64,000 bases of DNA from Streptomyces sp. NBC_00433. Its GTDB lineage: Bacteria > Actinomycetota > Actinomycetes > Streptomycetales > Streptomycetaceae. Location of the stretch: the NCBI GenBank assembly GCA_036015235.1, contig CP107926.1, positions 5,785,501 through 5,849,500 on the forward strand, given 5' to 3'. A model generated the notes under the pieces. It saw only the letters and a program-made list of their open reading frames with translations, did no database searches and was not told where the DNA came from. Within the stretch, counting starts at the first letter, position 1; each line of letters begins with the position of its first letter. A program made the position numbers and the translations under genes. Of the stretch, positions 4,774 to 23,014 are shown piece after piece.

Positions 4774-4887
4774 GGGCTCGGCGGGGCTGTCAGAGGGCTC
4801 GGCTGGAGGGCTCGGCGGGGCTGTCAGAGGGCTCGGCTGGAGGGCTCGGCGGGGCTGTCAGAGGGCTCGGCTGGAGGGCTCGGCGGA
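4774..4887. repeat. 34-bp tandem repeats upstream of murQ
   Basis: Three identical 34-bp units (4774-4807, 4808-4841, 4842-4875) and a 12-base partial fourth fill the gap between rpiR and murQ. Each unit holds two GGGCTCGGC half-units. The array is flanked on each side by a similar short sequence of the type GCGGAGCAAA...TTCAGCG (near 4722 and 4883), suggesting expansion from one ancestral segment. It lies in the presumed murQ leader on the minus strand. Confidence 0.9.
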
Positions 4888-4926
4888 GCAAAATGGTTTC
4901 AGCGCATTATTTCAGTGCATACGTGG

Positions 4927-11884: not shown

Positions 11885-13633
11885 GTGAGGCACCACCGCA
11901 TATCCCGTACCCGGCTCGCTGTCGCCACGGCCGTGGCCTTCGCTGCGGGGATCGCCGGACTGCCCGGCGTCGCGGCGGCCGACGACGCGCCTCCGGCGCC
12001 GGGGATTTCGGTCGGAATCGTCTCGGTCGAGGTCAACGGGGCCTCGGCCGAGTGGGACGTCACGGTGACCGATCCGCCCGCGGCCGACGCGTACGTACGC
12101 CTGACAGTCAATGACGGAGGTACGGGCGGCCTGCACATCACCGACGACGCAGGCAACGCCCTTCCGCTGGTCGACGTGCCCGGAAGCACGGGCCAGATCC
12201 TCATCGGCGCAGAGGACAGCGACCATGACGGCGTGCCCGGCGCACCGATGTCCGCCGGTGTGATCCGCCTTCATGTCAGCGCCACCTATCCCGTTCCGAC
12301 ACTGAACGGAGTCCGGGGATTCCTTGAGGACGGCGCCACAGGCGCCGACCTCGCCCACACCGCGTACGGGACCAACGGATCGATCGAGGTGCACGAGCCG
12401 TTCTTCCAGGCGGTCTGGCAGGATCCGGACCGCATGACGGGCGGTTCGTACGTGGACGTGGCGACCGGAGACAAGCGCGCCACGACGGGCCACGTGGTGA
12501 CCGGGCAGTCCACGCCGCTGGCTCCGGTGACCTCGACGCGGCTGACGATTACCGCCGCCTCGATCGCCGGGTCCGGTTACACGCCAGAGCAGCTGGCTTC
12601 CGCACTGCACCTCAGCTATTCCACCGACGCCGCCGCCTACGCCTCCCAGGAATTGACGGTCGCGGCGGACGGCTCGCTCACGGTGGAATTCCCGGGCAGG
12701 CAGTGGACCGTCGGCGGCACGGCCGGCGAGTACCTGAAACTCACCGCTGACTGGGGGCTGCCCGCTGGAAAGGTCATTGCCCGGGCTCAAACCCTCGACC
12801 AGGACGGGAAGGTACGCGGCTCCACCGCGGCAGAACTCACCTTCACGACGTCCGTGCTCCCCGCCGACCTGCGCTCGGCATTCTACGGGCGGGACAGCGC
12901 GGGTGTGCTCTGGCAGTACCAGAGCACACCCGATGTCACCCGCCCCGGCCAGCTCGCCAGTCGCACCAGCGTGGGCGGCGGCTGGCAGGGCTACACCGCG
13001 CTCGCCCCGCTCGGCGCCTTCAAGGCGGACGGCACCGGCGACCTCGTGGCGCGCGACGCCTCCGGTGTGTTGTGGCTGTACCGCGGTACAGGCTCGGCGA
13101 CGAAGCCGTTCGCGAACCGCGTCCGCATCGGCGGTGGTTGGAACATCTACCCGACCCTGGTCGGCGCGGGCGACCTCACCGGCGACGGGCACGCCGACCT
13201 GCTCGGGCGCGACAGCGCGGGCGTGTTGTGGCTGTACCGCGGTACAGGCTCGGCGACGAAGCCGCTCGCGGACCGCGTCCGGGTGGGCGGCGGCTGGCAG
13301 GGCTACACGACGCTCACCGGCGCGGGCGACGTGACCGGCGACGGGCGCGGCGACCTGCTCGCCGTGGACAGCGCGGGCAAGATGTGGCTCTACGCGAGCA
13401 CCGGCAATGCCGCCGCCCCCTACCGGAACCGCGCCCAGATCGGCGGCGGCTGGCAGATATACAACCGCGTCGTCGGCGTCGCCGACATGACCGGCGACGG
13501 CCACCCCGACCTGCTCGCGCGCGACCCCGCCGGCCGCCTCTGGTATTACCGCGGCACCGGCAACCCGGCCGCCCCGTACGCGAGTCGGGTGCAGAACGGT
13601 ACGGGCTGGAACATCTTCAACACCCTCCTCTGA
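11885..13633 (+). CDS. Secreted FG-GAP/VCBS-repeat protein
   Basis: A 582-residue exported protein. The GTG at 11885 (VRHHRISRTRLAVATAVAFAAGIAGLPGVAAADD) begins a Sec-type signal peptide with cleavage after AAA; the upstream extension to 11756 is not credible. The N-terminal half contains an Ig-like beta region (VEVNGASAEWDVTVTDPPAADAYV). The C-terminal half carries about five repeats of roughly 50 residues with the FG-GAP calcium motif DxTGDGxxDLL (GDLTGDGHADLLGRD, GDVTGDGRGDLLAVD, ADMTGDGHPDLLARD) and W[LQ]Y.GTG. It is probably a cell-surface or secreted beta-propeller whose ligand is unknown. A 42-bp stretch is repeated identically within the propeller. Confidence 0.9.
   Translation: MRHHRISRTRLAVATAVAFAAGIAGLPGVAAADDAPPAPGISVGIVSVEVNGASAEWDVTVTDPPAADAYVRLTVNDGGTGGLHITDDAGNALPLVDVPGSTGQILIGAEDSDHDGVPGAPMSAGVIRLHVSATYPVPTLNGVRGFLEDGATGADLAHTAYGTNGSIEVHEPFFQAVWQDPDRMTGGSYVDVATGDKRATTGHVVTGQSTPLAPVTSTRLTITAASIAGSGYTPEQLASALHLSYSTDAAAYASQELTVAADGSLTVEFPGRQWTVGGTAGEYLKLTADWGLPAGKVIARAQTLDQDGKVRGSTAAELTFTTSVLPADLRSAFYGRDSAGVLWQYQSTPDVTRPGQLASRTSVGGGWQGYTALAPLGAFKADGTGDLVARDASGVLWLYRGTGSATKPFANRVRIGGGWNIYPTLVGAGDLTGDGHADLLGRDSAGVLWLYRGTGSATKPLADRVRVGGGWQGYTTLTGAGDVTGDGRGDLLAVDSAGKMWLYASTGNAAAPYRNRAQIGGGWQIYNRVVGVADMTGDGHPDLLARDPAGRLWYYRGTGNPAAPYASRVQNGTGWNIFNTLL
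13067..13264 (+). repeat. Identical 42-bp direct repeat within the FG-GAP gene
   Basis: Bases 13067-13108 and 13223-13264 are identical, 156 bp apart (52 codons, one FG-GAP repeat). This could support recombination or gene conversion that changes repeat number. Confidence 0.9.
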
Positions 13634-19063: not shown

Positions 19064-20716
19064 TCAGGTGTCCTCGCCCGCGTCCGTCAGGAGGTCGTCC
19101 GCGTCCACGATCCGGTAGGCGTAGCCCTGCTCCGCCAGGAAGCGCTGCCGGTGGGCGGCGAAGTCCTGGTCGATGGTGTCGCGGGCGACGACCGAGTAGA
19201 AGCGGGCCTCGTGCCCGTCCGCCTTCGGCCGCAGCACCCGGCCGAGCCGCTGCGCCTCCTCCTGGCGGGAGCCGAACGTGCCCGACACCTGGATCGCGAC
19301 CGTCGCCTCCGGCAGGTCGATCGAGAAGTTGGCCACCTTCGACACCACGAGCACCGACAGCTCGCCCTGCCGGAAGGCCTCGAAGAGCTTCTCGCGCTGC
19401 GAGTTCGGCGTCTCGCCCTTGATCACCGGGGCGTTGAGATGCTCGCCCAGCTCGTCCAGCTGGTCGATGTACTGCCCGATGACCAGCGTCTGCTCCCCGG
19501 CGTGCTTGGCGACCAGCGCCTCGGTGACCTTGCGCTTGGTCGCCGTCGTGGCGCAGTAGCGGTACTTCTCCTCGGTCTCGGCGGTCGCGTAGGCCAGCCG
19601 CTCCGAATCCGTGAGGTTGACCCGGACCTCGACGCAGTCGGCGGGCGCGATGTAGCCCTGCGCCTCGATCTCCTTCCAGGGCGCGTCGAAGCGCTTCGGC
19701 CCGATGAGGGAGAAGACGTCCGACTCGCGGCCGTCCTCGCGTACGAGGGTCGCCGTCAGCCCGAGCCGGCGGCGGGCCTGGAGGTCCGCGGTGAATTTGA
19801 AGACGGGTGCGGGCAGCAGGTGCACCTCGTCGTAGACGATCAGACCCCAGTCGCGGGAGTCGAACAGCTCCAGGTGCGGGTAGACGCCCTTCCGCCGCGT
19901 CGTCAGCACCTGGTAGGTGGCGATGGTGACCGGGCGGATCTCCTTGCGCGTACCGCTGTACTCGCCGATCTCCTCCTCGGTGAGCGAGGTCCGCTTGACC
20001 AGCTCGTGCTTCCACTGCCGGGCCGAGACCGTGTTGGTGACCAGGATCAGCGTCGTCGCCTTCGCCTCGGCCATCGCGCCCGCGCCGACCAGCGTCTTCC
20101 CCGCGCCGCAGGGCAGCACGACCACGCCCGAGCCGCCGTGCCAGAAGCCCTCCACGGCCTGCTTCTGATACGGCCGCAGCGCCCAGCCGTCCTCGGCCAG
20201 CTCGATCGGATGCGCCTCGCCGTCCACATACCCGGCGAAGTCCTCGGCGGGCCAGCCCAGCTTGAGCAGCACCTGCTTGATCTGCCCGCGCTCCGACGGG
20301 TGCACGGCGACCGTGTCCTGGTCGATCCGCGCCCCGACCAGCGGCTGCACCCGCTTCGAGCGGAGGATCTCCTCCAGCACCGGCCGGTCGGTCGTGGTCA
20401 GCACCAGCCCGTGCGCCGGGTCCTTGCTCAGCCGCAGCCGCCCGTAGCGGTCCATCGTCTCGGCGACATCGACGAGCAGCGCGTGCGGCACCGGGTAGCG
20501 GCTGTACTCGACGAGCGCGTCCACCACCTGCTCCGCGTCATGCCCGGCCGCCCGAGCATTCCACAGCCCGAGCGGTGTGAGGCGGTACGTGTGGATGTGC
20601 TCGGGCGCCCGCTCCAGCTCGGCGAACGGGGCGATGGCGCGGCGGCAGGCGTCAGCCTGCTCGTGGTCGACCTCAAGGAGGAGGGTCTTGTCGCTCTGGA
20701 CGATCAGGCAGGACAC
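19064..20716 (-). CDS. XPB/Ssl2-family DNA repair helicase
   Basis: A 550-residue superfamily 2 helicase, the bacterial homologue of eukaryotic XPB (ERCC3). Start GTG 20716 has GGAGGT eight bases upstream; an earlier in-frame start adds 61 residues of intergenic sequence. The N-terminal DRD-like domain (residues about 1-170) contains SCLIVQSDKTLLLEV. Walker A is GAGKT (residues 204-208), Walker B DEVH 296-299, then GLTATLVREDG and, late in the protein, QEEAQRLGRVLRPK (motif VI) and FYSVVARDTIDQDFAAHRQRFL. It unwinds DNA in repair. An XPB-associated protein lies at 23316-25790 on the same strand, a typical actinobacterial pairing. Confidence 0.95.
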   Translation of the reverse strand: MSCLIVQSDKTLLLEVDHEQADACRRAIAPFAELERAPEHIHTYRLTPLGLWNARAAGHDAEQVVDALVEYSRYPVPHALLVDVAETMDRYGRLRLSKDPAHGLVLTTTDRPVLEEILRSKRVQPLVGARIDQDTVAVHPSERGQIKQVLLKLGWPAEDFAGYVDGEAHPIELAEDGWALRPYQKQAVEGFWHGGSGVVVLPCGAGKTLVGAGAMAEAKATTLILVTNTVSARQWKHELVKRTSLTEEEIGEYSGTRKEIRPVTIATYQVLTTRRKGVYPHLELFDSRDWGLIVYDEVHLLPAPVFKFTADLQARRRLGLTATLVREDGRESDVFSLIGPKRFDAPWKEIEAQGYIAPADCVEVRVNLTDSERLAYATAETEEKYRYCATTATKRKVTEALVAKHAGEQTLVIGQYIDQLDELGEHLNAPVIKGETPNSQREKLFEAFRQGELSVLVVSKVANFSIDLPEATVAIQVSGTFGSRQEEAQRLGRVLRPKADGHEARFYSVVARDTIDQDFAAHRQRFLAEQGYAYRIVDADDLLTDAGEDT

Positions 20717-20981
20717 GCGGTTACCTCCGGCGGGCCGGGTGGTGGGCGAACTGTCAAGTCTACCGCCCTGTGCCAGGCCCCCGGCGGCCTCGCCCCCGGG
20801 GGGCGTGATCCCGGGCCGCCAGGGGCGCGGGGGACCGCGCGACCGGCCCCACCGAGCCCGCAGACGCGCGGCCACCGCGAGTGGCACCCACCCCCCCATG
20901 GGACGACCATTCGTGCTAATCCACCGCCTCCTTAACCGTGGCTTACATGGCTATTAGTCCTATTTGATGTTTTCTGCCCCC

Positions 20982-22115
20982 ATGGATCACCAGCAGACGC
21001 AACCCCCCGCAGAGCCGCGCCGGCGGGGTACGTTCCGCGCCGTCGCGGCCTCCTCGGCTGTCGTCGTCGCGGGAGTCATCGCCGCGGCCGGCCTGCTGCT
21101 CCCCGCCTCTGCCAGCGCCTCCGGCGGTGGAACGGCGGGCGACGAGTGGGCGTTCTCCGGCTCCCGGACCTCCCAGCCCTCCGACCAGCCCAGCCGGCCC
21201 GACTCGTCGTGGCCCAGCAGCGGCCCCGACACGTCGTGGCCCAGCAGCGGGCCCGACACGTCGTGGCCGGTCGAGACGACCAGCTGCCCGCCCACCACGC
21301 CGCCGACGTACGGCCACCCGACTCACCCGTCGGGCCACCAACACCCTCCGGGCCACCACCACCCCTCGCACCACCCGGGCGATCACCCGTCGCATCACCC
21401 GAGCCACCCGCCGACGGGCCACCCGGGCGATCACCCGTCGCATCACCCGAGCCACCCGCCGACGGGCCACCCGGGCCATCACCCGTCGCATCACCCGTCG
21501 CATCACCCGAGCCACCCGCCGACGGGCCACCCGGGCCATCACCCGTCGCATCACCCGTCGCATCACCCGAGCCACCCGCCGACGGGCCACCCGGGCCATC
21601 ACCCGTCGCATCACCCGTCGCATCACCCGAGCCACCCGCCGACGGGCCACCCGAGCCACCCCCCGACCCATCACCCGACGCATCACCCGAGCCACCCGCC
21701 CACGCATCACCCGTCGCACCCGCCGACGCATCACCCGTCCCACCCCCCGACTCACCACCCCTCGCACCCGCCGACGCATCACCCGAGTCACCCGCCGACG
21801 GGCCACCCGAGTCACCCGCCGACTCACCACCCGTCGCACCCGCCGACGCATCACCCGTCCCACCCCCCGACTCACCACCCGTCGCACCCGCCGACGACGA
21901 CGCCTCCCACGACCCCCCCGACAAGCCCTCCGACCACCAGCACGCCGCCGTGGCACCCCTCGCACCACCCGTCCCAGCCGCCCACCACGCCTCCGGGGCT
22001 GCCGCACACCGGTGCTGACGGGGTGGAATGGATCGCCGCCTCCGCGGTCGCGGTGCTCGGAGCCGGCGGAACGCTGATCTTCCTGGCGCGACGCCGACGC
22101 GGACAGCACGGATGA
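20982..22115 (+). CDS. His/Pro-repeat LPXTG cell-wall-anchored protein
   Basis: About 377 residues from ATG 20982; ATG 20967 and TTG 20964 are in-frame alternatives, and no ribosome site clearly decides. A signal peptide (RRRGTFRAVAASSAVVVAGVIAAAGLLLPASASASG) is followed by a Trp/Ser/Pro linker and more than 200 residues of HPSHHPSHPPTGHPGHH-type repeats. A sortase signal LPHTG lies 38 residues from the end, then a hydrophobic helix (AASAVAVLGAGGTLIFLA) and RRRR tail. It is therefore exported, cleaved by sortase and linked to peptidoglycan. High His content suggests metal binding or a cell-wall-spanning stalk. Function is not known. The repeats are encoded by a 60-bp tandem array. Confidence 0.85.
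   Translation: MDHQQTQPPAEPRRRGTFRAVAASSAVVVAGVIAAAGLLLPASASASGGGTAGDEWAFSGSRTSQPSDQPSRPDSSWPSSGPDTSWPSSGPDTSWPVETTSCPPTTPPTYGHPTHPSGHQHPPGHHHPSHHPGDHPSHHPSHPPTGHPGDHPSHHPSHPPTGHPGHHPSHHPSHHPSHPPTGHPGHHPSHHPSHHPSHPPTGHPGHHPSHHPSHHPSHPPTGHPSHPPTHHPTHHPSHPPTHHPSHPPTHHPSHPPTHHPSHPPTHHPSHPPTGHPSHPPTHHPSHPPTHHPSHPPTHHPSHPPTTTPPTTPPTSPPTTSTPPWHPSHHPSQPPTTPPGLPHTGADGVEWIAASAVAVLGAGGTLIFLARRRRGQHG
21353..21910 (+). repeat. 60-bp tandem repeats encoding His/Pro motifs
   Basis: Lines at 21421-21480, 21481-21540, 21541-21600 and 21601-21660 share an almost identical 60-bp unit; the second and third are identical. Degenerate shorter repeats continue to about 21910. The period is a multiple of three (20 codons), so copy number can change without a frameshift. 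Confidence 0.95.
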
Positions 22116-22264: not shown

Positions 22265-23014
22265 ATGGCTATCCGCGGCGCACTGTTCGACCGGGCGCGC
22301 CGGCCGAAGTCCGAGCCGGAGGCTCCGGCGCAAGCGGCCACGAAGGCGAGGTCGCGGCCGGGGCCGAAGCCGGCCCGGAAGCCCGAGCCCAAGCCGGCGG
22401 CGAAGCCGCGGCCGAAGGCCGAGCCCAAGGCCGTGGACAACCCGAAGCGGACGCCGACGTCACGGCAACGACCGCGACCGCGGCAGCGCGTGCGTAAGAC
22501 CCCGCCGCCGGTGCTGCAACGGCGCACCCTCGGCCCGACGCTCGCGCGTGCCGCGGTCCTGGCCGTCGCCATCGTCTGCATGGTGGCGTTCGCGGTTGCG
22601 CTGGCCAAGGTCACGTTGGTGCCGTCGCCGGCGTCGGACGCGCTCATCCACACCAACCTGCGGCCGGGCGCGTCCATCCGCGCCTACCTCGACCAGCCCG
22701 CCATGCGCGACACGATCAAGCAGATCGGCGGCAACGTCCTGCTGGGCGTCCCCTTCGGCATCCTGCTCCCGATGCTCTTCCCGCGCGCCCGCGGCCTGCT
22801 CCGGGTCGCCGTCGTCACCGCCCTGGTGATGGTCCTCATCGAGGCCGCGCAAGGAGCCCTCGTGGAGGGCCGCGCCTTCGACATCGACGACGTCATCCTC
22901 AACACCCTGGGCGCCCTTATCGGCTACCTCCTCCTGGGCCGCCGCCTCGGCTCCGCCCTCCACCCCCACCGCACCCACTGGTGGCACCGCTTCCGCTCCA
23001 CGGCGGCGAAGTAG
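22265..23014 (+). CDS. VanZ-family membrane protein with Lys/Pro-rich N-terminal tail
   Basis: A 249-residue membrane protein from ATG 22265, with a GGGGGG purine run eight to twelve bases upstream. Residues 1-80 are a low-complexity cationic tail (KPARKPEPKPAAKPRPKAEPK), presumably cytoplasmic. The VanZ core follows with about four transmembrane helices: PTLARAAVLAVAIVCMVAFAV, then the hallmark DTIKQIGGNVLLGVPFGILLPMLFP, RGLLRVAVVTALVMVLIEAAQ and FDIDDVILNTLGALIGYLLL. VanZ-like proteins are linked to glycopeptide tolerance in some bacteria; in Streptomyces most have unknown roles. It is the last gene before a repeat-rich gap. Confidence 0.88.
   Translation: MAIRGALFDRARRPKSEPEAPAQAATKARSRPGPKPARKPEPKPAAKPRPKAEPKAVDNPKRTPTSRQRPRPRQRVRKTPPPVLQRRTLGPTLARAAVLAVAIVCMVAFAVALAKVTLVPSPASDALIHTNLRPGASIRAYLDQPAMRDTIKQIGGNVLLGVPFGILLPMLFPRARGLLRVAVVTALVMVLIEAAQGALVEGRAFDIDDVILNTLGALIGYLLLGRRLGSALHPHRTHWWHRFRSTAAK

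Follow-up and report, generated by a model that had tools for sequence, protein, structure and literature searches.

In a 64,000-nucleotide stretch of DNA from Streptomyces sp. NBC_00433 (contig CP107926.1, positions 5,785,501 to 5,849,500; hereafter the window), we identified a gene for a predicted wall-anchored protein with a long stalk of histidine and proline. The explanation that we consider best, and to which we give about even confidence, is a clade-specific, secreted surface protein of Actinacidiphila, which a sortase would fix via an LPHTG motif and in which a disordered, Pro-rich spacer with a cysteine at its border would carry a pH-sensitive charge in the His-rich members. Our analysis establishes the gene, its anatomy, its pattern of conservation, its phylogenetic range and the predicted disorder of its product.

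Architecture of the stalk protein

The open reading frame at 20982..22115 on the plus strand (377 codons, the stop being included in the coordinates) is a genuine gene and not a chance frame, because its N- and C-terminal parts are kept in 24 of the 35 genomes of the genus. Comparison of the orthologs also supports the start codon at 20982, since the in-frame ATG upstream of it, at 20967, is missing in some of them (e.g., CTG stands there in L011).

All features of the protein described below lie on the plus strand. Residues 1-47 (20982..21122) form a signal peptide with a putative cleavage site at its end. Such a signal had been proposed in an earlier note on this DNA, and a helix at residues 21-36 predicted by AlphaFold2 together with a conserved basic-hydrophobic N-terminus bears this out, the secretion signal being judged from alignment and helix prediction. 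It is followed by a low-complexity head of Ser, Asp, Pro and Trp (21123..21284), which is predicted to be disordered and contains SGPDTSWPS repeats, found by tandem-repeat analysis as a 27-bp repeat at 21191-21268. The sole cysteine of the protein, Cys102 (21285..21287), marks the border between head and stalk within the sequence SCPPT. The stalk itself comprises residues 103-339 (21288..21998), i.e., 237 residues with 75 His (32%), 82 Pro (35%), 30 Thr and 29 Ser, so that the His/Pro/Ser/Thr repeats do cover more than 200 residues, as claimed previously. The LPHTG sorting motif (residues 340-344; 21999..22013) and a C-terminal membrane helix with an RRRRGQHG tail (22023..22112), as judged from the alignment and AlphaFold2, complete the protein.

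AlphaFold2, employing an alignment of 18 orthologs, predicted two helices only, at residues 21-36 and 348-372, both of which lie in signal regions, and no folded domain anywhere in the protein. The mean pLDDT was 53.7, a low confidence that cannot separate an extended from a collapsed chain. Among the orthologs, no Pfam families were found beyond the anchor and a PT repeat. Matches to solved structures (OCM3 and circumsporozoite protein) were set aside as low-complexity similarity, and a single match to a Nonomuraea plasmid lay within the repeat and was compositional.

The sorting signal is of the LPXTG type

The LPHTG anchor named in the earlier note is supported by the model TIGR01167, which scored 18.8 bits against a cut-off of 15.9; Pfam Gram_pos_anchor scored 15.7 and stayed below its cut-off of 20. 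Among the aligned members, TIGR01167 matched 18 of 18 and Gram_pos_anchor 14 of 18 at an E-value of 0.01. Of 21 distinct C-termini among the orthologs, 20 carry LPHTG and one (G001) LPNTG, as counted with an LxxTG filter, so that LPHTG was not presupposed. The copy with LPNTG (L183) also has a very long head rich in QGQ and QHNW, and lysine in its stalk.

The features expected of an LPXTG substrate, i.e., an N-terminal secretion signal, an LPXTG-like motif, a hydrophobic helix and a basic tail, were all found. Substrates of class E sortases (LAXTG) have alanine at the second motif position, where all 21 C-termini carry proline, and the window protein fell below the cut-offs of the LAETG and LAVTG models. 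Class E sortases of Streptomyces (SrtE1) favour LAXTG (PMC5148588). The LAXTG proteins anchored by them share with the window protein a secretion signal, sorting motif, helix and basic tail in the same order (PMC5148588), and the latter differs by its LPHTG motif and its long disordered stalk. Within its own genome, TIGR01167 yielded two matches, which is no full count of the LPXTG proteins encoded there; the second protein carries LAATG. The same genome gave seven sortase-domain matches: a tandem pair of class E, one further match read out as class F, and four others (L033, L034, L035 and L037) for which no clean protein was obtained. A literature search for Actinacidiphila together with sortase found no paper.

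A related design is described for SspA of Actinoplanes missouriensis (PMC13293333), which is likewise actinobacterial, has a sortase signal and a mature part predicted to be disordered. SspA has been detected on the cell surface, where the window protein is predicted to lie; unlike the latter, it is a spore protein of 191 residues that is described only in Micromonosporaceae, and it is not known to have a His/Pro stalk. The likeness lies in these described features. Together, the conserved sorting and secretion signals and the lack of a predicted folded domain support the previous suggestion of a sortase-anchored stalk that spans the wall, the anchoring itself being predicted.

Orthologs share their ends and a single cysteine

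Each of the 18 complete LPHTG orthologs contains exactly one cysteine, which lies at the border between head and stalk and is followed by PP or SP; the border cysteine is also found in the readable copies of G001, G011, G015 and G034. The head can be as short as 31 or as long as 298 residues, its composition varying between SYGQ-like and QGQ-rich, and stalks span 44 to 237 residues. Histidine makes up 20-32% of the stalk in 12 of the 18 orthologs; the other six form three pairs, at 14-15%, 5-6% and 0-1% (0% in G003). The invariant design is therefore secretion, the border cysteine, a Pro-rich spacer predicted to be disordered, and the anchor.

Repeats turn over between species

The earlier note had the protein built from a 60-bp tandem array. 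Three 60-bp copies (HHPSHHPSHHPSHPPTGHP(G/S)) do lie at 21477..21656, the first two being identical in DNA and the third differing by one base; however, they make up a minority of the stalk, whose base register is 12/24 bp. TRF reported 43.8 copies of a 12-bp unit and 14.9 copies of a 24-bp unit. Along the stalk, two 48-bp copies of the GDHPSHHPSHPPTGHP type (21381..21476) precede the 60-bp trio, which is followed by (P)SHPPTHH repeats in the 24-bp register (21657..21896), and the 12-bp unit lies beneath all of these. The length of every unit is a multiple of three bases. Two other repeats were seen in the window: a 34-bp repeat at 4774-4888 (3.3 perfect copies), whose period does not divide by three, so that a change of copy number would shift any frame read through it, and a 156-bp tandem repeat at 13067-13525, whose consensus (DLTGDGHADLLA) resembles FG-GAP/VCBS repeats.

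The earlier note suggested that the copy number may change in frame. Stalk length and repeat type differ across species, each represented by one genome, and even between two close ones. A. paucisporea, whose XPB gene is 96% identical in DNA, carries plain HHPS arrays in place of the 60-bp unit, which indicates that the arrays turn over fast between species. One ortholog (L184, from G034) loses its frame within the stalk: the frame of the N-terminus does not reach LPHTG, a different frame encodes the conserved C-terminus, and the cysteine segment is present twice. This break may be a recent mutation, a phase change or an assembly error.

Genomic context and phylogenetic range

The stalk gene is divergent from an XPB-type helicase gene (19064..20722, minus strand; PF16203/PF13625), its constant positional partner wherever tested, as also seen from synteny. 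Where further genera were tested, the place next to XPB is taken by different genes or is empty. Downstream lies a gene for a VanZ-family membrane protein (22265..23014, plus strand; PF04892). An operon of both genes was considered and dropped, as G007, G019, G020 and G021 have VanZ but no stalk gene, and in L044 VanZ lies on the far side of XPB. By coordinates, G031 and G023 show this arrangement as well, so that VanZ has changed its position with respect to the stalk gene.

Directly 5' of the start codon, the ortholog alignment revealed a non-coding block of 26 bases, AGTCNTATTTGATGTTTTCTGCCCCC (20956..20981, plus strand), most columns of which are identical in 18-22 of 22 orthologs. It occurs as a single copy in its own genome with three mismatches allowed, and a control with the reversed pattern gave 0 matches. 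No Shine-Dalgarno sequence was recognisable in the block and a scan for sigma-70 promoters found nothing. Judging from its position and conservation, AGTCNTATTTGATGTTTTCTGCCCCC is a probable near-leaderless promoter and start.

The host genome belongs to Actinacidiphila, a genus of acid-tolerant Streptomycetaceae, and not to Streptomyces; its named relatives are A. paucisporea, A. cocklensis, A. rubida and A. yanglinensis. The N-terminal half of the gene was found in 23 genomes of the genus and a C-terminus at a contig end in one more; these figures come from a broad genome search, as a scan of the genome contigs with a single pattern was too narrow (7 loci). In Streptomyces sp. NRRL F-5123 (L010/L041), the frame runs into VSYTHLRAHETGRNLVCRL at a contig end, which resembles translated sequencing adapter. 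The N-terminal half was not found in any other genus searched. In a search of 294 genomes of the order, those outside the genus gave weak matches, which for the most part covered only the C-terminal sorting signal; judged as a group, the C-terminal-only matches were taken as ordinary sorting signals and not as orthologs. In a tree of the VanZ gene, a single short gene of under 500 bases rooted at the midpoint, the 23 placeable carriers form one clade (support 0.967) with seven non-carriers outside, and no remnant of the stalk gene was found in the non-carriers checked (G007, G014, G019, G020 and G021). One gain followed by retention would be the simplest reading.

Possible roles of the histidine-rich stalk

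Metal buffering had been suggested as a role of the stalk. As a conserved role this is not supported, since stalk histidine drops to 0-6% in four of the 18 complete orthologs, which retain anchor and cysteine. A store in the cell wall that takes up Zn, Ni or Cu, either to buffer these metals or to supply them, would be in line with the HHPS and GHP motifs, which resemble the Zn- and Cu-binding GHHPH repeats of vertebrate histidine-rich glycoprotein (HRG; PMC5372734), and with wall-anchored zinc proteins known in Corynebacterium (PMC12445094). Conserved metal ligands were not found, however, the histidine share ranging from 0 to 32%, and the neighbours of the stalk gene (DNA helicase, VanZ and a WYL protein) include no metal-transport gene. 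The Corynebacterium proteins ZnuG and CmrA are likewise wall proteins with sortase signals, but they are tied to metal by specific HxD/HxH motifs and zinc-regulated clusters, neither of which was seen for the stalk gene (PMC12445094). HRG, an unrelated plasma protein that is not wall-anchored, serves as an analogy only: its His-rich region has tandem His/Pro repeats, whose charge is set by pH and Zn, and it releases nearly all Zn by pH 5.5 (PMC5372734), so that metal binding by the stalk would be weak in acid soil. We consider a metal store unlikely. Histidine could instead be neutral, produced when repeats slip in a Pro/Thr spacer of which only length and disorder matter; the low-His members retain all other parts, and stalks poor in His appeared on two or more branches of the clade. 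Yet random change of Pro and His codons should also yield Leu, Arg, Gln and Asp, and the pooled stalks of the 18 orthologs (96% P/T/H/S/G) contain 509 His against 0 Leu, 10 Arg, 13 Gln, 14 Tyr, 5 Asp and 2 Asn. As the one-base neighbours of His and Pro codons are nearly absent, histidine seems specific and not mutational noise. With 14% His or more in 14 of the 18 orthologs, it is favoured in most species but dispensable, and we regard its neutrality as rather improbable.

A different proposal centres on stalk length, which, together with the reach of the head, would change through recombination between identical DNA repeats, as in the Periscope Proteins SasG, Rib and Sgo_0707 (PMC8201768). 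These are also surface proteins with repeats that are near-identical in DNA and stalks of variable length. The matching 60-bp copies, the spread of stalk lengths between species, the different arrays of A. paucisporea, several contigs that terminate inside or close to the stalk, and the frame break in G034 would all be compatible with such a mechanism. Known Periscope Proteins, however, have folded repeat domains, an N-terminal functional domain and repeat numbers seen varying between strains (PMC8201768); the repeat here is disordered, with no folded domain predicted, the three-copy array is short, our comparison is between species only, and the frameshift in G034 may be an assembly error. 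This proposal appears unlikely to us.

The preferred reading, a sortase-fixed surface protein with a pH-sensitive spacer, would work as follows. Sortase would fix the secreted protein to peptidoglycan via LPHTG, and the Pro-rich stalk would most likely form an extended spacer through the wall, with a contour length of ~70 nm in the window protein if polyproline-II-like. The spacer would hold the low-complexity, mostly acidic head outside the wall, and a disulphide at the single border cysteine would probably join two molecules. A wall-crossing spacer with a head and one thiol is most likely the reading that suits every member. A His-rich stalk would carry hardly any charge at neutral pH and a strong positive charge in acid soil, which would stretch the chain and enable it to attach to acidic heads, polymers of the wall or surfaces. 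For the mature window protein, we computed a charge of -3 at pH 7.5, +59 at pH 5.5 and +70 at pH 4.5, values that are overstated by the use of fixed pKa values; members with long acidic heads (L012 and L017) are computed to be net negative even at pH 4.5. The GHHPH repeats of HRG offer a precedent for a charge that responds to acid (PMC5372734), and Actinacidiphila includes acidotolerant and acidophilic strains (PMC9893292). By this analogy, a pH-dependent positive charge would fit an acid-tolerant genus better than metal buffering does, and the pH-responsive stalk suggested in the earlier note is thus allowed. With histidine at 0-6% in four of the 18 orthologs, not every member can act as a pH switch. 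We put forward only speculatively, and at low probability, a clade-specific, disulphide-linked and wall-anchored brush, whose His/Pro stalk would act as a charge switch for soil pH, uncharged and compact at neutral pH and polycationic and extended in acid, and whose repeat turnover would adjust the His content of each species. By analogy to the protein O-glycosylation known in Streptomyces coelicolor (PMC6593405), the Thr/Pro stalks may be O-mannosylated.

Taken as a whole, the protein represents a clade-specific variant of wall-anchored disordered proteins. Its 18 complete orthologs form a natural series with the same ends, a single cysteine, stalks of 44-237 residues and 0-32% His, which would allow the effects of length, disorder and His content to be separated in a bacterial wall protein. 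The series also raises the question of which sortase processes a signal of LPXTG type where the enzymes known from Streptomyces favour LAXTG.
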